A stretch of DNA of 34,288 bases, from assembly GCA_003565135.1 (NCBI GenBank), contig PXDC01000484.1:1-34288 (forward strand), read 5' to 3'. This document shows, piece after piece, positions 8,139 to 29,434 of the stretch. The notes beneath the pieces are model-generated. The model saw nothing but the letters and a program-made list of their open reading frames with translations. It did not search any database and was not told the DNA's origin. A program made the position numbers and the translations under genes. The DNA is from Verrucomicrobiota bacterium (GTDB lineage Bacteria > Verrucomicrobiota > Verrucomicrobiia > Opitutales > T3Sed10-336). How positions within the stretch are numbered: the first letter of the stretch is position 1; every line of letters begins with the position of its first letter.

Positions 8139-8163
8139 AAAAAAGACGCCGGGGAGACCGGCG
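8139..8163 (-). terminator. Rho-independent-like terminator between D1 and D2
   Basis: Minus strand CGCCGG-TCTCC-CCGGCG-TC-TTTTTT: perfect 6-bp GC stem followed by six T. Confidence 0.7.
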
Positions 8164-8171
8164 AATCCCAA

Positions 8172-10054: not shown

Positions 10055-10109
10055 TTCGGACAACAGAACAGGTTCAATCGCGGCTTGGAAAGATTCATTC
10101 CCGGTATCA

Positions 10110-11458: not shown

Positions 11459-11727
11459 GATTCCGGACTCCTTTCCCGGGTGAAGTATTTAGCCACGGCG
11501 ATCCCGGCAATGAAGTTGAGGACCGCGTAAGCCAGGGCGATGTCGGCGAACATATAAAATCTCCCGTAGAGGAACCCGAACATGCAAACCAACCCGATGG
11601 TCTTGGCACCCATGGCGCCGATCGCGAGCAGGCGATCGAACACGGTGGGCCCCCGCATGACCCGGTAAAAAGGGAGCAGAACAATCGCAACCAGGGCCAC
11701 CGTCGCCGCTACAAAGAACGTATCCAT
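11455..11727 (-). CDS. mnhF: Mrp/Mnh antiporter subunit F
   Basis: FYRVMRGPTVFDRLLAIGAMGAKTIGLVCMFG...YMFADIALAYAVLNFIAGIAVAKYF. Confidence 0.92.
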   Translation of the reverse strand: MDTFFVAATVALVAIVLLPFYRVMRGPTVFDRLLAIGAMGAKTIGLVCMFGFLYGRFYMFADIALAYAVLNFIAGIAVAKYFTRERSPES

Positions 11728-11730
11728 AGC

Positions 11731-12479: not shown

Positions 12480-15400
12480 TCAGGCTTCGACCGGTTCCGG
12501 CTGGCGATGGCGGTTAAACCAGACGTAGACGATGGGGATGACAAAAAGCGTGATCAACCCCGAGCTGAGCAAGCCGCCTATCACGGCGCGCGCCAACGGG
12601 GCCTGCGCCTCGGCGCCCTCACCGACACCCATGGCCAGCGGGACCAGGGCGAGCATCGTGGTCAGGGACGTCATCAGGATCGGCCGCAATCGCCGCCGGC
12701 CGGCTTCACGCGCCGCGTCGTCGGCCGAGGACCCGTCCGCCTGCAGGCGGGAAGCCTGGTCGACGATGAGGATGGCGTTGTTGACCACAATGCCGCCGAG
12801 CATAATGAGACCGATATACGATTGCACATTGAGGGTGCTCCCGGTGAGGAAAAGCAAAAGGATGGCACCGATCCCCGCCATGGGAACGGAAAACATCACA
12901 ACCAGCGGATTGCGCAGGGATTCGTAAAGGCAGGCCATCACCATGTACACGAGGAGAATCGAAAGCATCATGCTTATCAGCAGCTCGCGAAAGGCCTCCT
13001 GCTGCTCCTCGTAATCGCCCCGGACAAACATCTGGTAGTTCGCCGGGGTCGGGATCCCGGCCAGCACCTCGAGAATATCGCGGCTGGCCGAGCCGAGATC
13101 GCGGTCGGAGAAATTAATCGAAACGTTGGCCACCCGCTGCTGATTGCGCCGTTCGATCTGGGTGGGACCCGGCTCGCGGGAAAACGCCACCAGGCTGCGC
13201 AGGGAAACCTGGTCCCCGTCGCCGTTGGGAATGGTCAGATTCAGAACGTCGTCCAGTTCCATGCGGTCGGCATCGCGCAACCGAAGGAGCATCCGGACCT
13301 CGTCGCCGTTGTCCCGGAACTCCCCGGCCCGGGACCCCCCCACCGCGGTGCGGAGCATGCGGGCAACCTGGCCGGTGGTGATCCCGAAATCGGCCGCCCG
13401 GTCCCGGTCGATCCGCACCAACTGCCGCGGCACGCCGTCCTGCCGGCTGAGCTCGACATCGGTCACTCCCGGAATGGACTCCACCGCCGCCGCCACCTGG
13501 GCGGCGAGGGCGTCGAGGGTGTTCAGGTCGAACCCGGTTATCTCCACCCCGAGCCGGTCGTCCTCCCCGCCGCCCGCGCCCATGCGGAGGATGAAGAGAC
13601 CGCGCCCGGGACTGACACGCAGGTCGACCCCGGGAATATCCCGGAACTTCGGGCGAAGGGCGTTGGCGATCTCCTCGCTCGACCGGTCGCGGTCGCGCGC
13701 CGGCACCAGGTAGGCCCGCACGCTTCCGCGGATGCCGCCGGTTCCCCGCCATCCCCAGGATCCGGACCGGACCTCCATATTTTCGATCTCCGCCACGTTT
13801 TCCCGCACGATTCGTTCGACTTCGCGCATCTTGGCGTCCATCGCCTCTATACGCGTTCCCGCCTCCATGTCCGCATTCACCCGGACCTCGCCCTCGTCCG
13901 CCTCGGGCATAAACTCGGTACCGAGCCGGGGAACCAGCAAAAGGGCCCCGGCAAAAAGAACCACGGCGGCTCCGAACACCGCCACCGGCCGGCGCAGGGC
14001 GCGGTCGAGCGCCCGGCTATAGAGGGCCTCCAGGCGCCGGAACCGCTCGGCCGCCCACCCGAGCAGGCGACGACCGACATCCCTCCGCGCCCCCGGTCCC
14101 GGCGGCGCGGTCCCGGGAACCCTCGACGCCAGCATGGGGACCAGGCTCAAAGCGACCACGAGCGAACACAGCAGGGTGAAGCCGATGACATAGGCCAGCT
14201 GGCGAAACATCACACCCGACACCCCTTCGAGAAAGACCAGGGGAAGGAATATGGCCAGGGTGGTCAGCGTGCTGGCCACGATGGCCGCGGCCACCTCCGA
14301 GGCGCCCTGATGGGCCGCCTTGCGCGGTGCGGCACCCTGTTCCCGCAACCGGAAAATATTCTCCAGCACCACAATGGCATTGTCCACCATCATCCCCACT
14401 CCGAGCGCGATCCCGCCCAGGGTCATCAGGTTGAGGGTCAGGCCGGTGAAATACATGAGGGAGAAGGCCGCGATGATGGAGATCGGGATAGCCGTGGCAA
14501 TGATGGCGGTGCTGCGGATGCTGCGGAGGAAAAAAAGCAGCACCACGATGGCGAGGAGCCCGCCGTAAAGAATGGAACGATTGACGTTGGCGATCGACCT
14601 CTGGATGTACTGCGAGGTATCCCGGATCGGAGTCAGCGTCAGCTGGGGGAAATCGCGATTGATCCGGGCGATCTCGCGCCGCACCTCCCGCACCACCTGA
14701 ACGGTGTTGGTCCCCGATTGTTTGCGGATCGCGAGACTGACACCCGGTTCTCCATTGATGCGGGTAATGCGGGTCACTTCGGCATGCGTGTCGTGCACGT
14801 CGGCCAATTGACCGAGATAAACCGGGGCCCCCTCGCGCGTGGCCACCACCACGTCGCGCAGTTCATCGAGGCTGGAGAGCAGCCCCGGGGTTCGCAGGGC
14901 CATGCGCAAGCGGCCATCCTCGATCTCCCCTGCCGGGACGACAACGTTCTCTTCGCGAATGGCCTCGATAATCCGGTCCAGGGACAGGCCCAATGCCTGC
15001 ACCCGATCCGGGTCGACGGTAATCTGGATCTCGCGCTCCAGGCCGCCCCAGACGTCGACCGCCCCCACCCCGGGCACCCGGTCCAGCCGATTGCGGACCT
15101 GGTTGTCGAGCAGCCGGCGGAGGTCGATCTCATCCAGCCGGGAGGATGCGCCGACGATGAGTACCGGGAAAGCATTCGGGTCGAATTTGCGCAACTGAGG
15201 GCGGTCGGCATCGTCCGGAAGGTTGTTGAGCACGCGGTCGAGCCGGTCACGAACGTCGTTGGAGGCTTCGTCCAGGTTGGTTCCCCAGATAAACGACAGC
15301 ACCACACTGCTGCTCCCTTCGCTCGAAACCGACGTGATCTCCTCCACCCCCGGTACGGCCGCGACCGCCTCTTCCACCGTACGGGTGATCAACTGCTCAA

Positions 15401-15575
15401 CCTCCTCCGGGCTCGCGTTGTCGTAGCTGGTGACCACCGTCAGGCGCGGAAACTCGATCTCCGGGATCAGGTCGATCGGGAGCCGGGCCAGGGAGATCGC
15501 GCCCACCAGGATCACGATCAGGCAGACCATGACCGTAAAAACGGGACGATTGATACTGAATGAGGAAAGATTCAT
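12480..15575 (-). CDS. RND-family efflux permease (AcrB/HAE-like)
   Basis: 1031 aa; MNLSSFSINRPVFTVMVCLIVILVGAISLARLPIDLIPEIEFPRLTV..., GGIALGVGMMVDNAIVVLENIFRLREQG, repeated RND architecture. Confidence 0.95.
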   Translation of the reverse strand: MNLSSFSINRPVFTVMVCLIVILVGAISLARLPIDLIPEIEFPRLTVVTSYDNASPEEVEQLITRTVEEAVAAVPGVEEITSVSSEGSSSVVLSFIWGTNLDEASNDVRDRLDRVLNNLPDDADRPQLRKFDPNAFPVLIVGASSRLDEIDLRRLLDNQVRNRLDRVPGVGAVDVWGGLEREIQITVDPDRVQALGLSLDRIIEAIREENVVVPAGEIEDGRLRMALRTPGLLSSLDELRDVVVATREGAPVYLGQLADVHDTHAEVTRITRINGEPGVSLAIRKQSGTNTVQVVREVRREIARINRDFPQLTLTPIRDTSQYIQRSIANVNRSILYGGLLAIVVLLFFLRSIRSTAIIATAIPISIIAAFSLMYFTGLTLNLMTLGGIALGVGMMVDNAIVVLENIFRLREQGAAPRKAAHQGASEVAAAIVASTLTTLAIFLPLVFLEGVSGVMFRQLAYVIGFTLLCSLVVALSLVPMLASRVPGTAPPGPGARRDVGRRLLGWAAERFRRLEALYSRALDRALRRPVAVFGAAVVLFAGALLLVPRLGTEFMPEADEGEVRVNADMEAGTRIEAMDAKMREVERIVRENVAEIENMEVRSGSWGWRGTGGIRGSVRAYLVPARDRDRSSEEIANALRPKFRDIPGVDLRVSPGRGLFILRMGAGGGEDDRLGVEITGFDLNTLDALAAQVAAAVESIPGVTDVELSRQDGVPRQLVRIDRDRAADFGITTGQVARMLRTAVGGSRAGEFRDNGDEVRMLLRLRDADRMELDDVLNLTIPNGDGDQVSLRSLVAFSREPGPTQIERRNQQRVANVSINFSDRDLGSASRDILEVLAGIPTPANYQMFVRGDYEEQQEAFRELLISMMLSILLVYMVMACLYESLRNPLVVMFSVPMAGIGAILLLFLTGSTLNVQSYIGLIMLGGIVVNNAILIVDQASRLQADGSSADDAAREAGRRRLRPILMTSLTTMLALVPLAMGVGEGAEAQAPLARAVIGGLLSSGLITLFVIPIVYVWFNRHRQPEPVEA

Positions 15576-16795
15576 CGCACCTCGCCCGCCTCATCGAACC
15601 GGGCGACACCTTCGACGTCGCCGGAATCGCCCCGTCCCACCACCCGGACCCGCGTGCCGTCGGCCAATTGGTCCTGCCCCAGGACCACGACGTCCCCGCT
15701 CAGTTCGGGTTCGGCGATCTGGATACGGCCGCCCTCGATATAGCCGGTGCGCACCTCGACAAACCGGGCCTTGTCGCCCTCCTCCCCGCTCTCGACCATA
15801 AAGACCCCTTCGCGACCCTCGCGGCGGACGATCGAATCCCGGGGGACCACCACGGCGTCCTCGGCTCTGCCGAGTTCCAGCGATACCCGGACAAACTGTC
15901 CCGGTTTCAGGCGCTCCTCCGGGTTGGGCACCTCGAGCTCGACCCGGGCGTGCCGCGACGATTCCCGGAACTGCGGCGCAAGGCGAATAACGGCCCCGGG
16001 AAACGTTTCATCCGGAAGCACATCGCTGGTCACGGTTCCCTCCTGGCCGATCCGGACGCGCGGGTAATCCCGCTCGGTCACCTGAAACACGGCCCGAAGG
16101 TTCCGCAGGTCGACCAGGGAAACAATGGGCTGGTTGGCGGTCAGGGTGGTCCCCTCGTCGACGTAGCGTTCCCCCACCACCCGGCTGTCGCCTTCGCCCT
16201 CCCATCGCGCCGCAATTCGAGTGTAGGAGAGCCTCAGCTCCGCCGCCCGCAAACCGGCCTGGCGCTGCTCGATCGTCGCTTCGGCCACCCGGACCCGCGA
16301 TCGCTCGGCCAGGACCCGAGCCTCGGCCGCTTCCAGGTCCGCCGCCGACGCCACGCGCCGCTCCCGCAGGGCCTGCACCCGGTCGCGCTCCCGTTCGGCC
16401 AGCTCCAGCGAGCTCCCGGCCTCCTCCAGGTTCGCCCGGGCCACCTCGACCTCCGCCTGCGACTGGGCCACCTCCTGCACGAACCCCTCGTCGTCCAGGC
16501 GCGCGATAAGCTGCCCGCGCTCGATGGGATCGCCGATATCCACCGGCAGCGAGGAAAGCTGGCCGCCCACCTTGGCGGCGACGTCGAATCGCGACCGCGA
16601 GGCGAGCGACCCGCTGAAGGTGCGCAGGTTCCGCACGGTATCCCGCTCCACCGAAACCACCTCAACCGCCACCGCGCCGGGCTCCCGGACCCGGTCAACC
16701 GGTTCGTCGGCGAAGCGCTGGTAAAACAACGCGACCAGCGCAAGGGCCAGAAAGCCGCCGAACACAGCCATCAGAAGTTTTCGTACCTTGTTCAT
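15572..16795 (-). CDS. RND efflux periplasmic adaptor (membrane fusion protein)
   Basis: VAAKVGGQLSSLPVDIGDPIERGQLIARLDDEGFVQEVAQSQAEVEVARANLEEA...LSYTRIAARWEG...LKPGQFVRVSLELG; 4-bp overlap with the permease. Confidence 0.93.
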   Translation of the reverse strand: MNKVRKLLMAVFGGFLALALVALFYQRFADEPVDRVREPGAVAVEVVSVERDTVRNLRTFSGSLASRSRFDVAAKVGGQLSSLPVDIGDPIERGQLIARLDDEGFVQEVAQSQAEVEVARANLEEAGSSLELAERERDRVQALRERRVASAADLEAAEARVLAERSRVRVAEATIEQRQAGLRAAELRLSYTRIAARWEGEGDSRVVGERYVDEGTTLTANQPIVSLVDLRNLRAVFQVTERDYPRVRIGQEGTVTSDVLPDETFPGAVIRLAPQFRESSRHARVELEVPNPEERLKPGQFVRVSLELGRAEDAVVVPRDSIVRREGREGVFMVESGEEGDKARFVEVRTGYIEGGRIQIAEPELSGDVVVLGQDQLADGTRVRVVGRGDSGDVEGVARFDEAGEVR

Positions 16796-17418
16796 GATAT
16801 CGCTTGGTTGGAGAACGCTTGGTCCCGTTTCCGGCGTTGCCCCGATCCGGCGCCGTGCAAAAACATTTCCAGGATAAAATCGTGTGAACGGTAGCTGGGA
16901 TCGGCGTCCGCGAGGTCGCGGGCACGGGTCCGCAGCATCCCGAGGAGGAAGTTGGCCAGTACCGGCGGAGGAACATCATCCCGCAGGACCCCTTGTTGCT
17001 GCCCGAGTTCCAGAACTCCGCCCACGGCGTCAACCAGACGGCGCCGGTGCTGCAACCACGCCTCCTGCAGGCGCCCGCCGCACTCAAATATGCGTGCCTC
17101 CTCGTTTTGCATCGACTGAAACACCGCCCGCCGGTTGGCGAAAAAAGTACTGATCTCGGCGCAGGTCTCCCGCAGGTAGACCGCGAAGGTCGTGTCCTCG
17201 CACGAGTGCCCCGCGATGCCCGAGCACAACGCGTCGAACCCGGAAAACACCACCTGAAAAAAAAGGTCCTTCTTGTCCCTGAAATACAGGTAAAGCGTGC
17301 CCTTGCCCACACCGGCGCGTTCGGCCACCTCGTCGAGTTTGATTTCGCTCCAGTGCCGGGCCGCCATGAGCGATTCGGCCGCGCTCAGTATCCTTGCCTT
17401 TTTTTCCTCCCGTTTCAC
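16792..17418 (-). CDS. TetR/AcrR-family transcriptional regulator
   Basis: N-terminal HTH AAESLMAARHWSEIKLDEVAERAGVGKGTLYLYFRDKKDLFFQVV; 4-bp overlap with the adaptor gene. Confidence 0.93.
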   Translation of the reverse strand: MKREEKKARILSAAESLMAARHWSEIKLDEVAERAGVGKGTLYLYFRDKKDLFFQVVFSGFDALCSGIAGHSCEDTTFAVYLRETCAEISTFFANRRAVFQSMQNEEARIFECGGRLQEAWLQHRRRLVDAVGGVLELGQQQGVLRDDVPPPVLANFLLGMLRTRARDLADADPSYRSHDFILEMFLHGAGSGQRRKRDQAFSNQAIS

Positions 17419-17557: not shown

Positions 17558-18841
17558 ATGGCGGAATCGTACCGGAAAGCAAAACAGGTTCTGGAATCCA
17601 TTCTGGACACCGGGGACCCGGAATCTCTCGCCCGCCGGCTGGGATCGCGCTTCGAGCCGCCGGAGGCATCGGTTCGTTCGCCCCTCCGCAACGGTCCCGA
17701 AGCGGTGGAGGGACGGCTGGCCCACCTGCCGTTGTCGGACGGGGCCCGGAACACCCTGCTCGATAACGACACGCGCGAGCGGCTGCCGTCGTATGCCGCC
17801 AACATCGAAAACCTCATCGGCACGGTAAAAATCCCCCTCGGCGTGGCCGGCCCCTTGCGCATCAACGGCCTCTTCGCCCACGGGGACTACCTCCTGCCCC
17901 TGGCCACCCACGAAGCCGCCCTGGTGGCCTCCTATCACCGCGGCTCCCTGGCCATCACCGAAGCCGGGGGTTGCCGGACGGTCCTGCTCAACGAAGCCGT
18001 CTCGCGCGCTCCGGGATTCGCCTTTGAGGATCTCGGTGAAGTCGGCCGGTTCATGGTGTGGGCGCTGGAACAGCGCGAAGCATTCGAAAAGGTCGCCGGC
18101 GAAACCACCCGTCACGGGCGCCTGCGCGACATCCGGCTGACGGTGGAGGGGAACCACGTCTACCTGACCTTCGAGTACCTGACCGGGGACGCGGCGGGCC
18201 AGAACATGGTCACCCTGGCCACCGACGCGGTTTGCCGCTACATCATCGAACACACGCCGGTCAAACCGCGTTACTGGTTTGTCGAGTCGAACCTGTCCGG
18301 CGACAAAAAAGCGAGCGCCCAGTCGTTCGCCGGCGTCCGCGGCAAAAAAGTCACCGCCGAAATCACGCTGTCGGCCGAAATCCTCGGGAAGCGGCTGAAG
18401 GTGAAGGCGCAACAAATGGTGGACTTCTGGCGCATGTCGGCCCTGGGCGGGGTGCTCAGCGGGACCATCGGGGTGCAGGGGCACTACGCCAACGGGATTG
18501 CCGCGCTGTACCTGGCCTGCGGGCAGGACGCCGCCTGTGTGGCGGAATCGGCGGTCGGGGTCACCCGCTTCGAGGAACGGGAAAACGGGATCCTTTACGC
18601 CGCGGTCACCCTGCCGAACCTCATTGTCGGCACCGTCGGAGGAGGAACCGGCCTTCCGTCGCAGCGGGCCTGCCTCGACCTCCTCGGCCTGGCCGGCGAA
18701 GGCAAGGCGCGGGCCTTTGCCGAGGTCTGCGCGGCGACGGCGCTGGCGGGAGAGCTCTCCATCATCGCCGCCCTGTGTTCCGGCGACTTCGCGCGCGCGC
18801 ACGCCGTCCTCGGCCGCAAACGCCATTCCCGCACCCCCTGA
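17558..18841 (+). CDS. Hydroxymethylglutaryl-CoA reductase, class I-like
   Basis: ENLIGTVKIPLGVAGPLRINGLFAHGDYLLPLATHEAALVASYHRG, GDAAGQNMVTLATDAVCRYI, SNLSGDKKASAQSFAGVRGKKVTAEI, TLPNLIVGTVGGGTGLPSQRACLDLLG. Confidence 0.93.
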   Translation: MAESYRKAKQVLESILDTGDPESLARRLGSRFEPPEASVRSPLRNGPEAVEGRLAHLPLSDGARNTLLDNDTRERLPSYAANIENLIGTVKIPLGVAGPLRINGLFAHGDYLLPLATHEAALVASYHRGSLAITEAGGCRTVLLNEAVSRAPGFAFEDLGEVGRFMVWALEQREAFEKVAGETTRHGRLRDIRLTVEGNHVYLTFEYLTGDAAGQNMVTLATDAVCRYIIEHTPVKPRYWFVESNLSGDKKASAQSFAGVRGKKVTAEITLSAEILGKRLKVKAQQMVDFWRMSALGGVLSGTIGVQGHYANGIAALYLACGQDAACVAESAVGVTRFEERENGILYAAVTLPNLIVGTVGGGTGLPSQRACLDLLGLAGEGKARAFAEVCAATALAGELSIIAALCSGDFARAHAVLGRKRHSRTP

Positions 18842-18857
18842 ACCGGCTCTGTTCCGC

Positions 18858-19808
18858 ATGAAAGAAACGGTCTCCCCCACCACCCCCGCAGGCTGGCGCC
18901 GCTGGATGATCTACCAGCGGGAACGTTTCCCTTTCGCCCGTCACGGCCCCCTCGTCGCCGTTTTCAGTTTCGCCGCCGTCGGTTACTCCCGGTTGCTCCG
19001 GGGCGAGGCCGGCTTCCCGGAACCCGCCCAACTGCTGGTGGCCTTTATAACCGCCCTGCTGTTTTTCCTGCAGTTGCGCATCGCGGACGAATTCAAGGAC
19101 TACGAAGAGGACGCCCGTTACCGTCCCTACCGGGCGGTCCCCCGCGGTTTGGTGACCTTGCGGGAACTGGGATGGATCGGGTTCGGCTGCGGCGTAGCCC
19201 AGCTGGCCCTGGCGCTCTGGCTGCACCCGCCCCTGCTCGGCGTCCTGGCCCTCGCGTGGCTGTATCTCGGGGCCATGAGCCGGGAGTTTTTCGTGCGGGA
19301 CTGGCTCACCGCCCGACCGGTGACCTACCTCTGGACCCACATGCTGATCATGCCCCTGATCGATCTCTACGCCACCGCCTGCGACTGGCTTACGGCGGGG
19401 CGCACCCTCCCGCCCGACGGCCTTTACGGGTTCCTGATCGTCAGCTTCTTCAACGGCATTCTGATCGAGATCGGCCGCAAACTGCGGGCTCCCGCGGACG
19501 AAGAGGAAGGCGTGCGCACGTACACCGTGATCTGGGGTCGCGGAAACGCGGTCCGGGCCTGGTGCTTAATCCTGACCGCAAACCTGGTCTTCGCCGGCCT
19601 GGCCGCGGGGATGGTGGGTTTCCTCCCGCCGGCTCTCGCCATCCTGGTGCCGATTTATTTCTTCGCCTTATTCCGCGCCCGGTGTTTTCTGCAAAACCCC
19701 ACCGGGGATACCGCCTCCTGGTTCGAATTCCTCTCCGGCATCTGGACCCTCGTCATGTACCCGCTCCTGGGATTGGCCCCGTTTCTCATGCGCGCCCTGG
19801 AATCCTGA
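18858..19808 (+). CDS. UbiA-family prenyltransferase
   Basis: Start at MKETVSPTTPAGWRRW, internal to the listed ORF. Asp-rich RIADEFKDYEEDARYRPYRAVPRGLVTLRELG; second acidic region EIGRKLRAPADEEEGVRTYTVIWG; multiple TMs. Confidence 0.85.
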   Translation: MKETVSPTTPAGWRRWMIYQRERFPFARHGPLVAVFSFAAVGYSRLLRGEAGFPEPAQLLVAFITALLFFLQLRIADEFKDYEEDARYRPYRAVPRGLVTLRELGWIGFGCGVAQLALALWLHPPLLGVLALAWLYLGAMSREFFVRDWLTARPVTYLWTHMLIMPLIDLYATACDWLTAGRTLPPDGLYGFLIVSFFNGILIEIGRKLRAPADEEEGVRTYTVIWGRGNAVRAWCLILTANLVFAGLAAGMVGFLPPALAILVPIYFFALFRARCFLQNPTGDTASWFEFLSGIWTLVMYPLLGLAPFLMRALES

Positions 19809-19824
19809 CTCACACCGGCCTCCC

Positions 19825-22491
19825 ATGTCCACGCCTCCCTTTATTCTCGACGCGGAATCCGAACCCGACCTCGCGACCATGGGCGGCAAAGCCTGCGCGC
19901 TCGCCCGCATGGCGGCCGCGGGAATCCCGGCCCCGCCGTGGATTGCCGTCGCTCCCGCCGCCTTCCACTCCTCCCTCCCCGCGGACGGAACATTCGACCC
20001 GGCCCTCCCGGAGAGCTGGCGGGGATTCTCCCTCGCGGCCACGGTTCGGACCTCGCTGGAAAGCGCGCTCGCGCGGGCCGGGCTCGAGGGCGAACGGCTG
20101 GCCGTCCGTTCGTCCGCCGCCGAGGAAGATGCCGCGGATCGTTCCTACGCCGGGCAGTTCGAGAGTTTCCTGTTCGTCAGGCCGGATGAGGTGGCCGATT
20201 ACGTGGTGCGGGTCTGGCAGTCGGGAGCGGCCGACCGGGTCGCGGCCTACCGGGGAGACCGGGACGCTGCGGAAACCCCGTTTTCTCCTCCGGCGGTCCT
20301 GATCCAGAAGATGGTCGACGCCGAAGCAGCGGGTGTCGCCTTCAGTGTCGATCCCGTTTCGGGCGCCTGGGACACCGCCGTGGTCAGCGCGGTTTACGGC
20401 CTGGGTTCATCCCTGGTGGGCGGGGAATCCGATGCCGACACCTACCGGATCGATCGCAACGGGAGAATCCTCGAACGCACGGTGGCGGAAAAGCGAACCG
20501 CCCACCGGCTCAACCGCGAAGCGGGCGGCGGCATTCACACCGTACCCGTTCCCCCCGCGGATCAGCGCGCCCCGGCGATCACCGACACCCAGGCATCCGC
20601 CGCGGCCGACCTGGCGCGCCGCTGCGCCCGCCTCGCCGGCCTTCCCCAGGATATCGAATGGGCCCTGGAGGACGGGAAAATCCACCTCCTGCAATCGCGT
20701 CCGGTGACCGCGCTCGCCCGCCTGCGCGATCCCGGGGGAATCGAGCGGATCTGGGACAACAGCAACATCGTCGAAAGCTACGGAGGCGTCTCCTCCACGC
20801 TGACCTTTTCCTTCGCGCGGCACGTTTACGAAGGGGTATACCGGCAATTCTGCCTGTTGCTGGGTGTCCGCCGCGCCGTGGTGGAGGACAACCGGGCGGT
20901 CTTCGCCGGAATGCTGGGACGGGTGCGCGGGCGGATATATTACAACCTCCTCCACTGGTACCGGATGCTGGCCCTGCTGCCGGGGTTCTCGGTCAACGCC
21001 CGCTTCATGGAGCAAATGATGGGCGTCCGGGAGGGGCTGCCGGAATCCGTACTGGGCGGCCTGCGCCGGCAGTCGGCCCGCGACCGCGCCGGCGCGGCCA
21101 TCGACTTCGCCCTTTCCCTCGGCGGGCTCGTCCGCAGCCACTGGACACTCGACCGGTCCATCCGTAAGTTTCACCGGCGCCTGGAGGAGGCCCTGGCCGA
21201 TCCGGACGGGAACCTCGGGGATCTGCGAGCCGACGAACTCGCCGCCGTCTACCGCCGATTGGAATCCCGCCTCATCACCCGCTGGGACGCGCCGCTGGTG
21301 AATGATTTTTTCGCCATGATCTACTACGGCCTCCTCAAAACGCTGACCGGGCGCTGGTGCCGCGATGAGGCCGGAACCCTCCAAAACGGACTTCTCTGCG
21401 GCGCGGGCGAAATCATCAGCGCCCAGCCCGCCCGGCGGCTCACCGAACTCGCGCGGCTCGCGGCCGCGGAACCCGGCTTTCCCGAAATTCTTTGCCAGGC
21501 GCCCCCGGCGAAGGTGATGCGCGAGGTCCGGCGCCGCCCGGACTTTTCCCGTGCCGCCCGCGCCTACCTCGATCAGTTCGGCGACCGTTGCCTCGAAGAG
21601 TTGAAGCTGGAGAGCGCGACGCTGGAGGACGACCCGCTCCTGCTCTACCGTTCCGCCGGCCAGCTCGCGCGGCGCTACCTCGAGGACGGCACCGCCGCGG
21701 ACCCCGAGCCCCCTTCGGCGGAAGGAGTCACCCGCACCCAGGCGGAGAACGAACTGGCGGAAAGACTCTCCGGCCACCCCCTGCGCAAACTCGTGTTCCG
21801 TTTCGTACTCACCCGGGCCCGGCGACGGGTGCGGGACCGCGAGAACCTCCGGTTCGAGCGCACGCGCCTGTTCGGACGGGTGCGCCGGATCTTCCTCGAG
21901 ATCGGACGCCGTTTCCACGCCTACGGGATCCTGGACGATCCCCGCGACATCCTTCACCTCGATCTGTTCGAAGCCCTCGGTTACATCGAAGGCACCGCCA
22001 CCACGCTGGATCTTCGCGGCCTGGCGGCACTGCGCCGGCGCGAGTACGAACGTTTCCTCGACGAACCCGCACCGCCGGAACGATTCGTCACCCGGGGCAT
22101 CGTTTGCCAGGGAAACGAGGCCCCGGAGCGTCAACCGGTGCCGGAGGACCCCGGCGGAGCCGACCTCGCGGGGATCGGGTGCTGTCCGGGGGTCGTGCGG
22201 GGGCGCGTCCGGGTGGTCCGCAACCCGCGGCAAGCCGAAATGCAAAACGGGGAAATTCTCGTGGCCGCCCAGACCGATCCCGGGTGGATCCTCCTGTTTC
22301 CGCTCGCTTCCGGACTCCTGGTGGAGCGGGGAAGCCTGCTTTCCCATTCCGCGATCGTTTCGAGGGAGATGGGTATTCCTTCGGTCGTTGCCGTCCCCGG
22401 CCTGCTCGCCCGGTTGAGAACCGGAGACGACGTGGAATTCGACGGGACGTCGGGCAAAATCCGCATCCTCGACCGTTGCCGCCATGAATGA
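19825..22491 (+). CDS. PEP-synthase / rifampin-phosphotransferase-like dikinase (ATP-grasp + unique middle + swivelling His domain)
   Basis: LAVRSSAAEEDAADRSYAGQFESFLFV, MVDAEAAGVAFSVDPVSG, DIEWALEDGKIHLLQSRPVTAL; C-terminal GSLLSHSAIVSREMGIPSVVAVPGLLARLRTGDDVEFDGTSGKIRIL. Confidence 0.88.
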   Translation: MSTPPFILDAESEPDLATMGGKACALARMAAAGIPAPPWIAVAPAAFHSSLPADGTFDPALPESWRGFSLAATVRTSLESALARAGLEGERLAVRSSAAEEDAADRSYAGQFESFLFVRPDEVADYVVRVWQSGAADRVAAYRGDRDAAETPFSPPAVLIQKMVDAEAAGVAFSVDPVSGAWDTAVVSAVYGLGSSLVGGESDADTYRIDRNGRILERTVAEKRTAHRLNREAGGGIHTVPVPPADQRAPAITDTQASAAADLARRCARLAGLPQDIEWALEDGKIHLLQSRPVTALARLRDPGGIERIWDNSNIVESYGGVSSTLTFSFARHVYEGVYRQFCLLLGVRRAVVEDNRAVFAGMLGRVRGRIYYNLLHWYRMLALLPGFSVNARFMEQMMGVREGLPESVLGGLRRQSARDRAGAAIDFALSLGGLVRSHWTLDRSIRKFHRRLEEALADPDGNLGDLRADELAAVYRRLESRLITRWDAPLVNDFFAMIYYGLLKTLTGRWCRDEAGTLQNGLLCGAGEIISAQPARRLTELARLAAAEPGFPEILCQAPPAKVMREVRRRPDFSRAARAYLDQFGDRCLEELKLESATLEDDPLLLYRSAGQLARRYLEDGTAADPEPPSAEGVTRTQAENELAERLSGHPLRKLVFRFVLTRARRRVRDRENLRFERTRLFGRVRRIFLEIGRRFHAYGILDDPRDILHLDLFEALGYIEGTATTLDLRGLAALRRREYERFLDEPAPPERFVTRGIVCQGNEAPERQPVPEDPGGADLAGIGCCPGVVRGRVRVVRNPRQAEMQNGEILVAAQTDPGWILLFPLASGLLVERGSLLSHSAIVSREMGIPSVVAVPGLLARLRTGDDVEFDGTSGKIRILDRCRHE

Positions 22492-23596
22492 GGCCACGGC
22501 GAGTGAAGTGGCCGCCCGGGCCGATTTCTCCCTCCTGCGCTACGGTCAGTGCTGGGAGGACGCCGAAATCCTCGTCGAGGGCCTCGCGATCCAGCCCGGG
22601 GACACCTGCCTGTCCATCGCCTCGGCGGGCGACAATTCCCTGGCCCTGCTCACCCGCAACCCGCGGAAGGTGGTGGCGCTCGACCTCAACCCGGCCCAAC
22701 TGGCCGCGCTCGAACTGCGCGTCGCCGCCTTCAGGTGCCTGGAACACGCCGAACTCCTCGAACTCCTCGGTTCCCGTCCCAGCGACCGACGGACCCGTTT
22801 GTACCGGCGCTGCCGGGCCATCCTGCCGCCCGCTTCGCGCGCGTTCTGGGACGCCCGTCCGCAGCTGGTCGAAGGCGGGATCGCGGCCGGCGGAAAATTC
22901 GAGAACTACTTCGCCCTTTTCCGCCGGCGGGTCCTTCCGCTGGTGCATTCGCGCCGGACGGTGAACGAACTTCTCCGCGATCGCGGCCCGGAGGAGCGAA
23001 CGGCTTTTTACCGGGACCACTGGAACACCTGGCGCTGGCGCCTCCTTTTCCGCCTCTTTTTCTCCCGGTGGGTCATGGGGAGGATGGGACGCGACCGGGA
23101 GTTTTTCCGGTACGTCGAGGGCGGCGTGGCCGAACGCATTCTCCGCCGCACCGAGCACGCGCTCACCGTCCTCAATCCCGCGGAGAACCCCTACCTGCAC
23201 TGGATCCTGCGCGGCCGGCACGGTGACGCCCTCCCCTTTGCCCTGCGTCCCGAAAACTTCGATACGATCCGCCATAACATCGACCGCATCGAGGGCCGGC
23301 TCCAGTCGGTGGAGGCGTTCGCGGATGAAGCGGGCGACCGGGCCGTGGACCGGTTTAATCTGAGCGATATTTTCGAGTACATGTCCGGGGACAACTATCG
23401 GCGCCTCCTCGATCGGCTGGTCCGCCTGGGACGGCCGGGCGGACGCCTGGCTTACTGGAATATGCTCGCCCCCCGCAGCCGCCCGGATTCGTTCGCCGAC
23501 CGGCTCCTTCCCCTCGCGGAGGAAGCCGCCGCCCTGCACCGCCGGGACCGGGCCTTTTTCTACAGCGCATTCATCCTGGAAGAAATTACCGGTTGA
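22484..23596 (+). CDS. DUF3419 family protein, BtaA-like (SAM:diacylglycerol 3-amino-3-carboxypropyltransferase homologue)
   Basis: LRYGQCWEDAEILVEGLAIQPGDTCLSIASAGDNSLALLTRNPRKVVALDLNPAQLAALELR... and FNLSDIFEYMSGDNYRRLLDRLVRLGRPGGRLAYWNMLAPR. Confidence 0.82.
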   Translation: MNEATASEVAARADFSLLRYGQCWEDAEILVEGLAIQPGDTCLSIASAGDNSLALLTRNPRKVVALDLNPAQLAALELRVAAFRCLEHAELLELLGSRPSDRRTRLYRRCRAILPPASRAFWDARPQLVEGGIAAGGKFENYFALFRRRVLPLVHSRRTVNELLRDRGPEERTAFYRDHWNTWRWRLLFRLFFSRWVMGRMGRDREFFRYVEGGVAERILRRTEHALTVLNPAENPYLHWILRGRHGDALPFALRPENFDTIRHNIDRIEGRLQSVEAFADEAGDRAVDRFNLSDIFEYMSGDNYRRLLDRLVRLGRPGGRLAYWNMLAPRSRPDSFADRLLPLAEEAAALHRRDRAFFYSAFILEEITG

Positions 23597-23629
23597 CCCG
23601 CGAGCGCCATCACACCGCAACCCGCCCCC

Positions 23630-24964
23630 GTGCACGACCTCATCGCCATCGCCGCCGTTCTTCTCGTCCTGGGCCTGCTCCTCGCCATCCTCCGGGCCTG
23701 GCAGGTGCGTTTCCAGCCGCACGCGGAATCGGCCCGAAAAGCACTCCACATGGGCATGGGCACGGTAACCCTGGCGTTTCCCTGGCTGTTTTCCTCCCCG
23801 CTCCCGGTCCTGGCACTCGGGTTTCTGGCCTTCCTGTTTCTCGCTTTGGTCCGGCGCCGCGGTCTCCCGGGCGCCTGCGGGGAGGTGCTGCACGCCGTCA
23901 AACGGCCCTCCTGGGGCGACCTGCTTTTCCCCCCGGGGGTGGCCGTCCTCTTTTTCCTCAGCGGCGGGGATCCCCTCTACTACTGGCCGCCCCTTATGGT
24001 GCTGACCTACGCCGATGCCCTGGCCGCCCTGGTGGGGACGCGGATCGGGTCCATCCGCTACCGCACCGACGACGGAGAAAAAACCCTCGAAGGATCCATC
24101 GCGTTTTTCCTCACCGCCTTCACCGCCACCCTGGCCTCGGTCTGGTTCTGGGATGCCGTTTCCCCCGGCCGGGCGCTCTCGGTGGCGGCTCTCTTCGGCA
24201 TGGTGGTCGTTATTGTCGAGGCGATCGCGTGGCGCGGACTGGACAATTTCTTCCTTCCGGTGCTCGGGTTCCTCTTCCTCGACGCCTACCTGGCGCTCCC
24301 GTCGGAAGCCCTCTGGATCCGCTTCGTGCTCCTCCTCATCCTGCTCGCCTTCACCTTTTACCTCAAAAAAAAGACCTCGCTCAACGACAGCGCCCTGACC
24401 GGTGCCGCCCTGTTCGGGTACCTCGCCTTCGCCGTCGGCGGAGTCGCCTGGGTCGTCCCGCCCCTGCTCCTGTTCCTGGCCTATCCCCGGTTCATTCCCT
24501 ACCTCATCGCCCGGCGAACGAACCGCCAGCCGGCCTCCGGCGTTCTCGCCGTGGTGCTGGCGGGGATCTTCTGGCTGATGCAGCACCGCGTCGCACCCGA
24601 CCCGGCCCACCTCTACGCCTACACCTTTACCTTCGCCGTTTTCCTCGCTGTTATCTGGATCAATCGCATAAAAGCCAACCGCCGGACCATGCGGCTGCCG
24701 GCATTGCTGGCGTTAACGGTCCTCCCTTCCCACACGCTGATTTACCTCCCGTACTTCACCTGGTTCGCCCCGGAACATTCCGTCCTCCACCTCGCACCGC
24801 CCGTTTACGCGGCGGGCGCCCTGGTCGGCGCACTTGTCTGGATGCGACAGGAGGAACTCGGCAGCGCCCCCCTGCCGTTCTCCGGCTGGTTCTTTCGCAC
24901 CGGCATGGTCGGGGCCGCCTCGCTGGGGCTTTTTGTGCTGGCGGTCAACGTTTCTCCCGCCTGA
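23630..24964 (+). CDS. Dolichol/phytol-kinase-like integral membrane protein with extra C-terminal TM half
   Basis: GTG start. ESARKALHMGMGTVTLAFPWLF, LTYADALAALVGTRIGSIRYRTDDGEKTLEGSIAFFLTAF match the CTP-dependent polyprenol kinase family pattern; about 220 more aa, TM-rich. Confidence 0.75.
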   Translation: MHDLIAIAAVLLVLGLLLAILRAWQVRFQPHAESARKALHMGMGTVTLAFPWLFSSPLPVLALGFLAFLFLALVRRRGLPGACGEVLHAVKRPSWGDLLFPPGVAVLFFLSGGDPLYYWPPLMVLTYADALAALVGTRIGSIRYRTDDGEKTLEGSIAFFLTAFTATLASVWFWDAVSPGRALSVAALFGMVVVIVEAIAWRGLDNFFLPVLGFLFLDAYLALPSEALWIRFVLLLILLAFTFYLKKKTSLNDSALTGAALFGYLAFAVGGVAWVVPPLLLFLAYPRFIPYLIARRTNRQPASGVLAVVLAGIFWLMQHRVAPDPAHLYAYTFTFAVFLAVIWINRIKANRRTMRLPALLALTVLPSHTLIYLPYFTWFAPEHSVLHLAPPVYAAGALVGALVWMRQEELGSAPLPFSGWFFRTGMVGAASLGLFVLAVNVSPA

Positions 24965-24986
24965 CCCTGCCAACGCCGTTTTCGCC

Positions 24987-25985
24987 ATGCAAACGAATCA
25001 CTACGACCCGCCCGCACCGCCGCCGGAGCATCCGGCCGCGGCCCCTTATGTCCCGGCCAATCCGTTCGACCACGAAGCCGACCGGCACCTGCGCCACGTC
25101 TCGCCCGGGGGCGCGGTGGGCGCGTGCGCGTCGATCTGGTTCCGGGAAACGCCTCCCATCGAGGGGGAACGCACCGGCGTGATCGGCCACTACTGGGCCG
25201 AAAACGCCGAAAGCGGGATCGGCGTGCTGAATGCGGCCTGCGAAGCATTGAAGCGGCGGGGCGCGACGGTCGCCATCGGCCCGATGGACGGCACCACCTG
25301 GCGGCGTTATCGTTTTGTCACCCGGCGCGGCGACCGGCCCCGATTCTTTCTCGAGCCCGACCAGCCCGACGCATGGCCGGGTCATTTTCGCGACGCGGGA
25401 TTCACGCCCCTCGCCCGTTACACCTCGGCGCTTCTGACCGACCTCGACCGCCCGGACCCGCGCCTGGCCGGGGCCCGGGACCGGGCCGACAGGGCCGGCG
25501 TCCGTATCCGGGAATTCGATACCACCGATTTCACCGGAGAACTGCGGCGGATCTACGCCGTCTCCCGTGCAAGCTTCAAACAGAACTTCCTGTTCACCCC
25601 GCTCGCGGAAGAAGCCTTTTTCGAGCTGTACCGTCCGCTGCAACCGCTGATCCGCCCGGAAACCGTACTGGTGGCGGAGGAGGGAGACCGTGCCGTCGGC
25701 TTCGCCTTCGCCCTTCCCGACCTCTGCGAAAAGGAACGAACGGGACGGACGCGCACCCTGGTACTCAAGACCCTCGCGGTTCTGCCGGGCCGCACCTACG
25801 CGGGCATCGGCACCCTTCTGGCCGGGGAAATCCGCCGGCGGGCAGCCGGGCTGGGCTTCGATCGGCTGATCCACGCGCTGATGCACGAAGACAACAACTC
25901 CAAAAACCTGGGCAAACAGGGCGCCGTCCCGATCCGGGAGTACACCCTCTACAGGCGTCGACTCGGCCGGACGGACGAACCATGA
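24987..25985 (+). CDS. GNAT-superfamily N-acetyltransferase-like protein
   Basis: Start at MQTNHYDPPAPPPEHP. VIGHYWAENAESGIGVLNAACEALKRRGATVAIGPMDGTTWRRYRFVTRRGDRPRFFLEPDQPDAWPGHFRDAGFTPLARYTS; GNAT-like VLPGRTYAGIGTLLAGEIRRRAAGLGFDRLIHALMHEDNNSK. Confidence 0.7.
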   Translation: MQTNHYDPPAPPPEHPAAAPYVPANPFDHEADRHLRHVSPGGAVGACASIWFRETPPIEGERTGVIGHYWAENAESGIGVLNAACEALKRRGATVAIGPMDGTTWRRYRFVTRRGDRPRFFLEPDQPDAWPGHFRDAGFTPLARYTSALLTDLDRPDPRLAGARDRADRAGVRIREFDTTDFTGELRRIYAVSRASFKQNFLFTPLAEEAFFELYRPLQPLIRPETVLVAEEGDRAVGFAFALPDLCEKERTGRTRTLVLKTLAVLPGRTYAGIGTLLAGEIRRRAAGLGFDRLIHALMHEDNNSKNLGKQGAVPIREYTLYRRRLGRTDEP

Positions 25986-27568
25986 ACCTCGTCGATTTCC
26001 TTCGCGCGCGAACCGCCGAGGCGCCCGACCGGCCGGCTTTGATCGAAGGGCCGGCAAACCGTCCGCGTATCACCCGCTACGCCGAGCTGGAGGAACGGTC
26101 GGCCCGGCTCGCGGCGCTATTCCGGGCACGCGGGCTGGCGGGGGGGCAAACCGCCCTGCTCTTCCTTCCCATGTCGGCCGACCTTTACGCCGTCCTGCTC
26201 GGCCTCTGGCGCATCGGAGCCACCGCCATGTTCCTCGATCCCGCGGCCGACGCGGCGACGTTTGCCCGCTGCTGCGCCATCCGGGCCCCCGACGCCCTGG
26301 TCGGACCGGGACGGGCCCACCTGCTTCGCCTGCGCCACCGGGCCCTGCGGCGTATTCCCCATAAGTTCTCCAACGGATTCACCCTCCTGCCGGCGGTCCG
26401 GTTGCACCGGGCAAACGCCCTGGTCCCCCGCGAGCGCATCGATTCGCTCCCGGAGGACCACCCCGCCCTGATCACCTTCACCAGCGGCAGTACGGGCCAA
26501 CCGAAAGCGGCGGTACGCTCCCACGGTTTTCTCCGCGCCCAGCACCGCATCCTTTCGCGGGCGCTCGGACTGCGTGCCGGCGAAGTCGATCTCGCCACAC
26601 TTCCGGTCTTTGCCCTGGCCAACCTCGCTTCCGGATTGACCACCCTGATTCCCGACGCCGATCTGCGCCGCCCGGGTTTCGTCGACCCTGTCCCGGTCCT
26701 CCGCCAGATCGACCGTTTCGGTCCGGACCGCTGCACGGCATCCCCCGCCTTCCTCGAACGGCTGGCCGAGGCCGCCGCGGCCCGTGGCCGGCCGGCGGCG
26801 AGTTTCCGCCAACTGCACACCGGGGGCGCCCCGGTTTTTCCCCGAACGCTGGAAAAACTGGGCCCGTTCGCTCCCAACGCCCGCATCCATGTCCTGTACG
26901 GATCGACCGAAGCCGAGCCTATTTCCGAAATCGCCCGCGACCGTATAACCGAGGCCGAACGGGCCGGTGCGCTGAGAGGGGAAGGTCTGCCGGTGGGAAC
27001 GCCGGCCGAGGGCACCCGGGTTCGCATCCTCCGGGACAACGGCGGACTTCCCCTTCACCCCCGGTCGGCGGCCGAATTCGATCGCCTGCTGGTTCCCCCC
27101 GGCCAGCCGGGCGAAATCATCGTCGCCGGCGACCACGTGCTTCCCGGTTACCTCAACGGCGAGGGTGACGCCGAGACCAAGATCCGCATCGGCCGGGAAG
27201 TCTGGCACCGGACCGGCGATGCCGGCACAAGCGATCGAGAGGGCCGGCTCCGTCTGCTCGGCCGTTGCCGCGCGCGGGTCCCCGACCCCCGCACTCCGGG
27301 CGCCTGGCTCTACCCTTTCTCCATCGAATGTGCCGCCACGGCGTTTCCGGCCGTCCGCCGGGCCGCCTTCATCCGCCACCGGGAGCGGAACTGGCTCATC
27401 CTGGAATCCGAACCCGGAGCCGCGACCCCGGATATTTCGGATTTCGGAGAACTGGCCGGTGCCATCCACGCCGTCACCACCCTGCCCCGCATCCCGGTGG
27501 ATCCGCGCCACAACGCCAAGATCGCCTACCCGGAACTCCGTCGCCTGCTCGAACGGCGGTTGCCGTAG
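25982..27568 (+). CDS. AMP-forming acyl-CoA synthetase/ligase-like (adenylating) enzyme
   Basis: Start ATGA overlap with the GNAT gene. ALITFTSGSTGQPKAAVRSHGFL, LYGSTEAEPISEI, GEIIVAGDHVLPGYLNG, WHRTGDAGTSDREGRLRLLGR. Confidence 0.9.
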   Translation: MNLVDFLRARTAEAPDRPALIEGPANRPRITRYAELEERSARLAALFRARGLAGGQTALLFLPMSADLYAVLLGLWRIGATAMFLDPAADAATFARCCAIRAPDALVGPGRAHLLRLRHRALRRIPHKFSNGFTLLPAVRLHRANALVPRERIDSLPEDHPALITFTSGSTGQPKAAVRSHGFLRAQHRILSRALGLRAGEVDLATLPVFALANLASGLTTLIPDADLRRPGFVDPVPVLRQIDRFGPDRCTASPAFLERLAEAAAARGRPAASFRQLHTGGAPVFPRTLEKLGPFAPNARIHVLYGSTEAEPISEIARDRITEAERAGALRGEGLPVGTPAEGTRVRILRDNGGLPLHPRSAAEFDRLLVPPGQPGEIIVAGDHVLPGYLNGEGDAETKIRIGREVWHRTGDAGTSDREGRLRLLGRCRARVPDPRTPGAWLYPFSIECAATAFPAVRRAAFIRHRERNWLILESEPGAATPDISDFGELAGAIHAVTTLPRIPVDPRHNAKIAYPELRRLLERRLP

Positions 27569-27835: not shown

Positions 27836-27860
27836 CGATAATTAGCCAGGCTGATTATCG
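27836..27860. promoter_or_regulatory. 25-bp near-perfect inverted repeat upstream of the PLP-enzyme gene
   Basis: CGATAATTAGCCAGGCTGATTATCG: 11 of 12 arm positions pair around a central A; ends 59 bp before the ATG at 27920. Confidence 0.55.
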
Positions 27861-27919
27861 TGTTTCTTTTCCCCTCGCTTTACCGCTGCCTTCCGATCTG
27901 CTATAGCGGAGTTTTAAGC

Positions 27920-29434
27920 ATGAAAGGGTTTCCGACATATGCCGTGGGCGCACGGGTCCCGGACAGTCCGCACGCGGTTTGTTGCAGCCTGCCGACGCTG
28001 CGGGATGTCATCGGGTACGAGGAGGAGGATCCGGCGGTGCGCCGGCACGTGTGCAGCGGCTACCCCCGGTTCGTCGAACACACCTACCTCCGGCGACTGG
28101 CGGAACACGTCGGGACGGAACTGGCTCTGACGGACCGCGCGGTGGCGCTCGCGCCGTCGCGGCGAAGCGCGGAGGGCCTGGTCGCATTTCTTCATTGCGG
28201 CGAGGTGGAAAAACGGGAATGGGGTCCCCTGCAGGTGATCGCGTTTCCGCGGCGCGACGATCTCGTGCGCCGGGCCCGGCAGTATTTCCAGCACGCCGGT
28301 TCCCTCCTTTCCTCAAGGGAGGCGGAAGACCTGCTGTACGGCGCCGGACTCCTGGACCGGCGCCATCCGGACCTGAGAAACGGCGCGGACCCGGAAAAAA
28401 CGGTCCGGGACCACCTGCTTGAGGCGTGTCCCGGACTGGACCCGGAAACGCTTCTCCTGTGCCGGAGCGGCATGAACGCTTTTTTTGCCTCGTTCCAGGC
28501 GGCCCGGCGGCTGCAGCAGCCGAAGGGAAAGACGGTCTGGATCCAGCTCGGCTGGCTGTACCTCGACACCACAAGGATCCTGGAAAAGTTTCTCGCTCCC
28601 GACGAGCGCTGTATCGCACTGCCCGATGCCGGAGACACCGCCGCCCTGGAGGCCGTCTTTGAACGGGAGGGCGACCGGATTGCCGGTGTGATCACGGAGA
28701 CACCCACCAACCCACTGCTCCAGACGGCCAACCTGGCCCGGGCCCGTGAGCTCTGTGATCGTTATGAAAGCCTGCTCTTCGTCGACCCGAGCCTGGCCAG
28801 CCTCTACAACGTGGACGTCCTGCCCTACGCGGATGTCGTTCTCCACAGCCTGACGAAGTATTTCGGCAACCGGGGCGACGTGATGATGGGGATGGCCGCC
28901 TTCAATTCCGCCCGGGGCGACCTGGCACGGGAATGGCACCGGCTGGCTCGAGAGGAGCACGAACCCCCCTACAGTCGGGACCTGGTCCAACTGGCGGGGC
29001 AGATCGGCGACGCCCGGCAGACCGTCGACACGATCAACCGGAACACCATCCGGCTGGCGGCATTTCTGGAGAACCATCCCGCGATCAAGCGGGTTCACTG
29101 GGTTTACGGGAAAACGACCGCAGCCGGGTACCGCCGAATCGCGCGCGGCCCCGAACGTCCGGGAGGCATCCTCACGCTGGACCTGGCCGTGCCGCTGGCG
29201 GATTTCTACGATTCGGCTCCGTTTGTCAAGGGACCGAGCTTCGGCACCCTGTTCACCATGATGTGTCCCTTCATGTACCTGGCCCACTACGACCTGGTAT
29301 CCCATCCGGAAGGGCGCGAACACCTGCGACGGCAGGGGATCGATCCAGACCTGGTCCGGGTCAGCGTGGGCACGGAGCCGGCGGAGGAGATCATCGAGGG
29401 ATTTCGCCGGGCCCTGGCATCACACCGGAAATAG
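27920..29434 (+). CDS. Cys/Met-metabolism PLP-dependent enzyme (cystathionine gamma-synthase-like)
   Basis: ITETPTNPLLQTANLARARELCDRY...LFVDPSLASLYNVDVLPYADVVLHSLTKYFGNRGDVMMG (PLP Lys context); C-terminal LVRVSVGTEPAEEIIEGFRRAL. Confidence 0.85.
   Translation: MKGFPTYAVGARVPDSPHAVCCSLPTLRDVIGYEEEDPAVRRHVCSGYPRFVEHTYLRRLAEHVGTELALTDRAVALAPSRRSAEGLVAFLHCGEVEKREWGPLQVIAFPRRDDLVRRARQYFQHAGSLLSSREAEDLLYGAGLLDRRHPDLRNGADPEKTVRDHLLEACPGLDPETLLLCRSGMNAFFASFQAARRLQQPKGKTVWIQLGWLYLDTTRILEKFLAPDERCIALPDAGDTAALEAVFEREGDRIAGVITETPTNPLLQTANLARARELCDRYESLLFVDPSLASLYNVDVLPYADVVLHSLTKYFGNRGDVMMGMAAFNSARGDLAREWHRLAREEHEPPYSRDLVQLAGQIGDARQTVDTINRNTIRLAAFLENHPAIKRVHWVYGKTTAAGYRRIARGPERPGGILTLDLAVPLADFYDSAPFVKGPSFGTLFTMMCPFMYLAHYDLVSHPEGREHLRRQGIDPDLVRVSVGTEPAEEIIEGFRRALASHRK

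Follow-up and report, generated by a model that had tools for sequence, protein, structure and literature searches.

Seven closely packed plus-strand genes in the genome of a Verrucomicrobiota bacterium raise the question of whether they work together and, if they do, what they make. They lie at positions 17558-27568 of the window, by which we mean the whole 34,288-nucleotide stretch of DNA that was analyzed, with gaps of 16, 16, -8, 33, 22 and -4 bp. All seven ORFs were confirmed, in agreement with the genes, strand and spacing given in the first-pass annotation, and Pfam matches upheld its assignments to the HMGR, UbiA, dikinase, DUF3419, GNAT and AMP ligase families. The products are referred to below, in gene order, as P0001 to P0007.

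Conservation and gene content of the cassette

We scanned 85,462 species genomes with the DUF3419 protein as query, which returned 145 relatives, and compared the loci of the best 80 of these together with one sister genome (81 loci). The first-pass annotation had proposed a single operon and had named a failure of the homologues ever to co-localize as grounds against it. Instead, all seven genes were present in 54 of the 81 loci; 45 of these, from about ten phyla, kept the order found in the window and were tightly packed, with a median intergenic spacing of -4 to -1 bp in the conserved-order cassettes. This recurrence of gene order in 45 loci across many phyla is far beyond chance. The distance matrices of the cassette families correlated at 0.68-0.91, indicating that the genes evolve together, while the scattered distribution of the cassette suggests horizontal spread. 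Taken together, order, spacing and distance correlations describe a conserved, co-inherited unit, and we consider it nearly certain that the seven genes are a real functional unit.

Departures from the common order were also found. The GNAT-AMP ligase block was moved ahead of the HMGR gene in four loci (L022, L034, L037 and L045), and in L068 the kinase gene immediately followed the HMGR gene, an arrangement that links the reductase with the alcohol kinase. Two Burkholderiales (L033 and L035) and one cyanobacterium (L046) retained the UbiA, dikinase-like and DUF3419 genes with no HMGR detected genome-wide, indicating that the core chemistry does not strictly include the reductase.

In an all-against-all clustering of ORFs, the seven were the only conserved genes apart from a P450/sulfotransferase pair in a minority of loci; the other small groups consisted of flanking genes or of spurious antisense ORFs that arise in GC-rich DNA. 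A downstream BesB-like PLP gene (27860-29434) was rejected as an eighth member, as it had no tblastn match at 1e-8 in the 81 loci, and the upstream TetR/RND operon was set aside because it lies on the opposite strand and does not recur at other loci. The P450 and sulfotransferase genes adjoin the cassette in six loci (L007, L016, L069, L077, L079 and L083), and MMPL exporters lie within the operon in two gammaproteobacteria (L025 and L068), so that both kinds of neighbor belong to a minority of loci. A P450 and sulfotransferase pair, CYP128-Stf3, converts menaquinone to sulfomenaquinone in mycobacteria (PMC7404182); the resemblance is an analogy only. The pair is missing from the window, and quinone pathway genes did not recur near the cassettes. 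Among the recurring neighbors of the 81 loci we found no BtaB-like N-methyltransferase, whether nearby or fused, and families of carrier proteins, NRPS or PKS did not stand out.

The HMGR-like reductase and host isoprenoid routes

P0001 (17558..18841, plus strand; 427 aa) matches PF00368 (HMG-CoA_red) at 2.2e-112 and is related to the enzyme that statins inhibit in humans. The cassette HMGRs have in common with class I HMG-CoA reductase the fold and the catalytic Glu, Lys, Asp, His and Asn residues. E119, K250, D324 and H415 of P0001 (human Glu559, Lys691, Asp767 and His866) were each kept in 56 of 56 cassette HMGRs. In human HMGR structures the HMG carboxylate is bound by Ser684, Lys692 and Lys735. 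Whereas Lys692 was retained, the other two ligands were replaced in every member. The Ser684 position, occupied by Ser in the HMGRs of humans, plants and archaea, was Glu in all 56 (E243 in P0001; plus-strand codon 18284..18286), and that of Lys735 was occupied by M, V, L, I or A and never by Lys (M293; plus-strand codon 18434..18436; 56 of 56). Further differences from the class I enzyme were C688S, T689G, P693A/S and the replacement of M655 by S, A, G or C. The same pattern of kept catalytic residues and replaced S684 and K735 recurred in a further sample of class I HMGRs from Verrucomicrobiota.

Host genome content bears on the same question. IspH of the MEP pathway was present in 44 of 48 cassette host genomes, and HMG-CoA synthase was absent from 44 of 48, scoring above cut-off in three. 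The genome that contains the window has two copies of IspH and one HMGR, and a search of it for HMG-CoA synthase found none. The annotation had taken the reductase to supply mevalonate. With the carboxylate pocket altered in all 56 members, and with hosts that are MEP organisms mostly devoid of HMG-CoA synthase, that premise is probably wrong, although a reductase of the P0001 type may accept HMG-CoA in another pose.

The six companion enzymes

The UbiA-family prenyltransferase P0002 (18858..19808, plus strand; 316 aa; PF01040, 5.7e-16) carries both acidic diphosphate-binding motifs of its family. Across a 57-sequence alignment, the first (D77-x3-D81-x3-D85) and the second (E204-x-G-R-K...E215) were conserved, the latter with Glu where UbiA usually has Asp. 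P0002 was too divergent to give a sequence match to solved UbiA relatives. P0003 (19825..22491, plus strand; 888 aa; PPDK_N, 1.6e-52; PEP-utilizers, 1.1e-20) resembles PEP synthase and rifampin phosphotransferase, and the solved chains closest to it are those of the rifampin phosphotransferase group. It shares with the rifampin phosphotransferase/PEP synthase/PigC group an ATP-grasp domain and a phospho-His swivel domain, whose histidine (H841, in a GSLLSH motif) is conserved, but differs in having a central domain of its own (DNSNIxESYxG...). It scored below the curated cut-off of every matched subfamily, PigC and RedH among them.

P0004 (22484..23596, plus strand; 370 aa; PF11899, 1.6e-69) is a DUF3419 protein and a predicted SAM 3-amino-3-carboxypropyl transferase. 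Its SAGDN motif is conserved among the cassette DUF3419 proteins. Identity was 25-29% to rhizobial (Rhizobiaceae) DUF3419/BtaA-type proteins, over about 78% of the query, and 25% to the annotated BtaA of Chondrinema, which a SAM methyltransferase gene adjoins. In common with BtaA/BtaB betaine-lipid synthesis, the cassette has a DUF3419 family member from which transfer of a SAM-derived 3-amino-3-carboxypropyl group is expected; in contrast to that system, its DUF3419 proteins form a divergent clade, have no BtaB among their recurring neighbors and keep other gene company.

The fifth gene (23630..24964, plus strand; GTG start) encodes a membrane prenol-kinase-like protein of 444 aa, P0005, comprising a VTE5-type N domain (about residues 1-226) and a variable C-terminal membrane domain. 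The annotation labeled it a polyprenol kinase. The protein has no Pfam or NCBIfam match of its own, but homology to stand-alone kinases of the VTE5 type was found for its N-terminal half. This half carries the VTE5-type motifs RK-x2-H, D-x3-A-x2-G and K-x2-EG(S) (invariant residues E33, R36, K37, H40, G44, D129, G136, K151, G155, D205 and N206), and a profile search matched it to stand-alone proteins of a cyanobacterial genome (E 3e-37 and 4e-31), which were named VTE5-type from their motifs. A PDB fold search with P0005 returned nothing below E 0.3 and only a weak CdsA match. The C domain is reduced in L019 and L068. A VTE5-VTE6 fusion was supported by the N domain but not by the C domain: similarity of the family to DUF92 (VTE6) was weak (6 of 57 members, best 5e-4), DUF92 was not found in the ten members scanned for match position, and no relative of the C domain was found in the genome of the cyanobacterium Microseira.

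The last two genes encode a tandem GNAT acyltransferase, P0006 (24987..25985, plus strand; 332 aa; PF00583, 7.6e-6), and an AMP-forming ligase, P0007 (25982..27568, plus strand; 528 aa; PF00501, 5.8e-47). The AlphaFold model of P0006 (pLDDT 90.6) has two GNAT folds, and its Foldseek matches were tandem GNATs (best E 1.9e-13). P0007 is distantly OleC-like; it failed the OleC equivalog (208 bits against a cut-off of 900) and scored 354 bits against PRK09274 (NCBIfam; cut-off 478).

Candidate pathway and its alternatives

An alcohol kinase of the VTE5 type feeds a UbiA-family transferase in phytol salvage and tocopherol synthesis. The cassette has both enzyme types in common with the plant and cyanobacterial system of phytol salvage and tocopherol prenylation (VTE5, VTE6 and the UbiA-family HPT). 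It differs in that VTE6 was not found and in its additional HMGR-like, DUF3419, GNAT and ligase genes; the RPH-like enzyme might supply the second phosphate. We propose that the HMGR-like enzyme would carry out a four-electron reduction of a non-HMG acyl thioester to an alcohol, which the N domain of P0005 would phosphorylate, with P0003 perhaps adding the second phosphate. UbiA would then alkylate an acceptor with the resulting prenyl or alkyl diphosphate, and the DUF3419 protein would add a 3-amino-3-carboxypropyl group from SAM. Finally, the AMP ligase would activate a carboxylate and the tandem GNAT would acylate the amine; alternatively, the acid activated could be the substrate of the reductase itself.

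The isoprenoid or lipid direction favored by the annotation is plausible given the UbiA and prenol-kinase domains and, at some loci, the MMPL exporters and P450/sulfotransferase pairs. We lean slightly toward a lipid of prenyl or alkyl type as the product, and judge the chances evenly balanced that this mobile, co-inherited cassette makes a membrane-associated, probably exported lipid of this type by the steps proposed; the exact order of those steps is unlikely to be right throughout. More tentatively, the product could belong to a novel class of bacterial lipids, such as one in which an N-acylated homoserine-derived head group is carried on a prenyl or alkyl chain; the Glu in the former HMG site of the HMGR paralogue would then recognize either an amino group or an acyl chain that is not acidic.

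Other products were weighed against the same evidence. Supply of ordinary precursors, with HMGR feeding the classical mevalonate pathway to IPP, would suit the class I fold and catalytic residues, but is highly improbable: the remodelled HMG pocket speaks against it, and it is already contradicted by genome content, both in the 48 hosts and in the genome of the window. Mevalonate might instead serve as a building block, made by HMGR from leucine-derived HMG-CoA, activated by the AMP ligase and transferred by the GNAT to the amine installed by the DUF3419 protein. Mevalonyl activation and transfer have an analogy in the fungal siderophore steps SidI and SidF, and OleC-type ligases use 3-hydroxy acids, of which mevalonate is one. 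The distant OleC similarity of P0007, the adjacency of the GNAT and ligase genes, which move as a block, and the intact HMGR catalytic residues fit this route, yet the loss of two carboxylate ligands in every member and the scarcity of HMG-CoA synthase make it rather improbable.

Synthesis of the betaine lipid DGTS by a BtaA-like enzyme has in its favor that DUF3419 is the family of BtaA. The low identities to the Rhizobiaceae and Chondrinema proteins, the lack of a BtaB-like methyltransferase among the recurring neighbors and the almost constant association with UbiA and the dikinase-like enzyme leave it with very little likelihood, in keeping with the doubt expressed in the annotation. The same seven enzymes could also make a non-lipid, diffusible secondary metabolite, such as a singly prenylated conjugate of amino-acid or aromatic type; AMP ligases, GNATs and RPH/PigC-like families occur in natural-product clusters, and the scattered distribution of the cassette would agree. 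We nevertheless regard this as unlikely, as the two membrane enzymes (UbiA and the kinase) and the MMPL exporters at two loci suggest that the product is lipophilic, and carrier protein, NRPS and PKS families were not prominent among the recurring neighbors.

The annotation did not recognize the gene set as a characterized pathway, and within the open-access literature searched this holds: we found no description of the cluster and no paper joining DUF3419 with a gene cluster, BtaA with UbiA, or DUF3419 with UbiA and HMG-CoA reductase. Broader searches of that literature turned up unrelated papers. A paper on the lipocone mentions HMGR or UbiA neighborhoods, of other kinds (PMC12419801).

The cassette is carried by cultured organisms, namely Luteolibacter pohnpeiensis, Rubritalea profundi, Haloferula sp., Yoonia maritima, Thalassococcus halodurans, Desulfobulbus rhabdoformis and Alkalilimnicola ehrlichii, so the product, which we favor as a prenyl or alkyl lipid, can be sought directly by comparative lipidomics. 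Its reductase offers a clear example, amenable to testing, of how an HMG-CoA reductase may be redirected to a different substrate, and family-level annotation of cassette genes (HMG-CoA reductase, PEP synthase, DUF3419) can mislead pathway reconstructions. The seven-gene order across about ten phyla, together with family distances that track one another, strongly supports the existence of an important shared product. If the cassette does make a new class of lipid, these phyla would share a pathway that known lipid schemes do not include.

Anatomy, breadth and inheritance of the cassette

The window is one contig (G000:C141) from a 4.2 Mb draft genome (538 contigs, 82% complete) that is probably metagenome-assembled. 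Seven plus-strand ORFs occupy positions 17558-27568 with gaps of 16, 16, -8, 33, 22 and -4 bp, exactly as the first-pass annotation had placed them: HMGR, UbiA, DIK (a PEP-synthase/rifampin-phosphotransferase-like protein), DUF3419, POLK (membrane prenol-kinase-like P0005), GNAT and AMPL (an AMP-forming ligase). Six of the seven family names were backed by Pfam and NCBIfam; P0005 lacked a library match of its own. Gene overlap and conservation suggest that the seven genes are co-transcribed. Judged by sequence alone, the region directly upstream (12480-17418) encodes a putative RND efflux transporter, membrane-fusion-type protein and TetR-type regulator, divergent on the minus strand, and a minus-strand run of membrane ORFs (4694-12330) resembles an Mrp-type Na+/H+ antiporter operon. 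Outside the cassette, 27860-29434 encodes a Cys/Met-family PLP enzyme with a full-length match (414 bits, below the 800-bit cut-off) to BesB of the terminal-alkyne amino acid pathway.

Of 88 genomes searched, comprising the window's and those of relatives as distant as its order, only 2 encoded DUF3419; the second, from the same family as the window, carries the full cassette (L003). Widening the search to 85,462 bacterial and archaeal species, each represented by a single genome, yielded 145 DUF3419-encoding stretches, the best 80 of which were kept; this set was collected via DUF3419 at ≥48% identity, so remote versions are missed. We then used tblastn with the window proteins on 81 loci (the best 80 of 145 plus L003), detecting HMGR in 58, UbiA in 62, DIK in 74, DUF3419 in 81, POLK in 73, GNAT in 67 and AMPL in 62, with many of the absent genes lost past contig ends. 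Co-localisation, proposed earlier as a check, was borne out: homologues adjoin in other genomes, and 54/81 loci contain all seven. The window's gene order, with every gap <700 bp, recurs in 45/81, and median neighbour spacing is -4 to -1 bp.

As recorded in databases, where some MAG labels may be wrong, hosts include Verrucomicrobiota (Lentisphaerae among them), Alpha-, Beta- and Gammaproteobacteria, Geobacter and Desulfobulbus types, Acidobacteria, Planctomycetes, Chloroflexi, Nitrospirae, Armatimonadota and Cyanobacteria. Complete sets occur in Verrucomicrobiota, Pseudomonadota, Desulfobacterota-type, Acidobacteria, Planctomycetes, Chloroflexi and Nitrospirae hosts. Among the best 80 of 145, the nearest relatives of the window DUF3419 are one Acidiferrobacterales and two Geobacter-type proteins (65-67%). 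Since other groups supply its closest matches, ahead of most of its own order, horizontal spread is likely. Across 32 complete sets, the seven families have pairwise identities that correlate at 0.68-0.91, indicating that the genes travel as a unit. The first-pass annotation recognised no characterised pathway here, and we likewise found no description of the seven-gene set in the open-access literature, a search that reached few subscription papers and preprints, and one may exist elsewhere.

The HMGR-like reductase

We aligned 56 cassette HMGRs with human, plant and archaeal HMGR (human numbering). E559, N686, D690, K691, K692, N755, D767 and H866 are invariant, and H752 is kept in 55/56. 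In human HMGR structures, the HMG carboxylate is held by S684, K692 and K735. S684 is replaced by Glu (E243 of P0001), C688 by Ser, T689 by Gly and K735 by M/V/L/I/A in all 56 proteins, and P693 by Ala in 55/56. IspH, the marker used to check for the MEP pathway, is present in 44/48 cassette genomes, including two copies in the window's, and HMG-CoA synthase exceeds its cut-off in only 3/48. Taken together, the changes at S684 and K735 and this host content make it very unlikely that the reductase supplies mevalonate for IPP, and unlikely that HMG-CoA is its substrate.

The signature is shared by 12 high-scoring class I HMGRs, including the window's, drawn from 291 sampled genomes of the phylum. 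At least five of these (L116-L119, L121) had no UbiA match inside the fetched 1.5 kb flank, and the remodelled E243-type reductase may work outside the cassette too. Five genomes (G149, G152, G189, G283, G311) pair an HMGR of the high-scoring cassette type with a second, lower-scoring HMGR of another type.

Proposed core and partner modules, and neighbouring genes

The GNAT-AMPL block lies 5' of HMGR in L022, L034, L037 and L045, and L068 reads HMGR-POLK-[MMPL exporter]-UbiA-DIK-DUF3419-GNAT-AMPL. Two Burkholderiales (L033, L035) and a cyanobacterium (L046) kept UbiA-DIK-DUF3419 with no HMGR detectable in the genome. These block moves and HMGR-less loci suggest a UbiA-DIK-DUF3419 core with HMGR-POLK and GNAT-AMPL as partner modules. 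The short cyanobacterial cassette (L046:3451-5667) is UbiA-DIK-DUF3419-GNAT; ahead of it stand genes for a radical SAM/SPASM protein and for a membrane protein that has no Pfam match.

DIK retains the ATP-grasp domain and, in a GSLLSH motif, the swivelling His H841. The solved structures closest to it (5fbs-5fbu, 5hv1-5hv3) are tabulated as PEP synthase and belong to the rifampin phosphotransferase group. DUF3419 keeps the SAGDN motif and shares 25-29% identity with rhizobial DUF3419 proteins. POLK carries the invariant VTE5-type kinase pattern, and its profile matches two stand-alone N-domain homologues in a Microseira genome. Its C domain is variable, and L019 and L068 have lost it or retain a reduced form; a suggested identity with VTE6 was not clearly supported. 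The GNAT protein is a tandem GNAT whose high-confidence structure model is closest to tandem GNATs (for example MAB_4324 and mycothiol synthase) and FemX/MprF-like folds. AMPL is a distant relative of OleC/PRK09274.

At six loci (L007, L016, L069, L077, L079, L083), from Gamma- and Alphaproteobacteria and one Akkermansia-labelled MAG, a P450 and Sulfotransfer_3 pair directly adjoins the cassette on the opposite strand (assigned by Pfam for the L007 and L079 pairs and the L069 sulfotransferase, otherwise by similarity). Mycobacteria use CYP128 and Stf3 to hydroxylate and sulfate menaquinone (PMC7404182). Inside the operon, L025 and L068 carry MMPL exporters. As to the product, which like the chemistry and step order of the cassette we infer, the P450/sulfotransferase pair and the MMPL exporters are minority features that agree with a lipophilic, exported compound.
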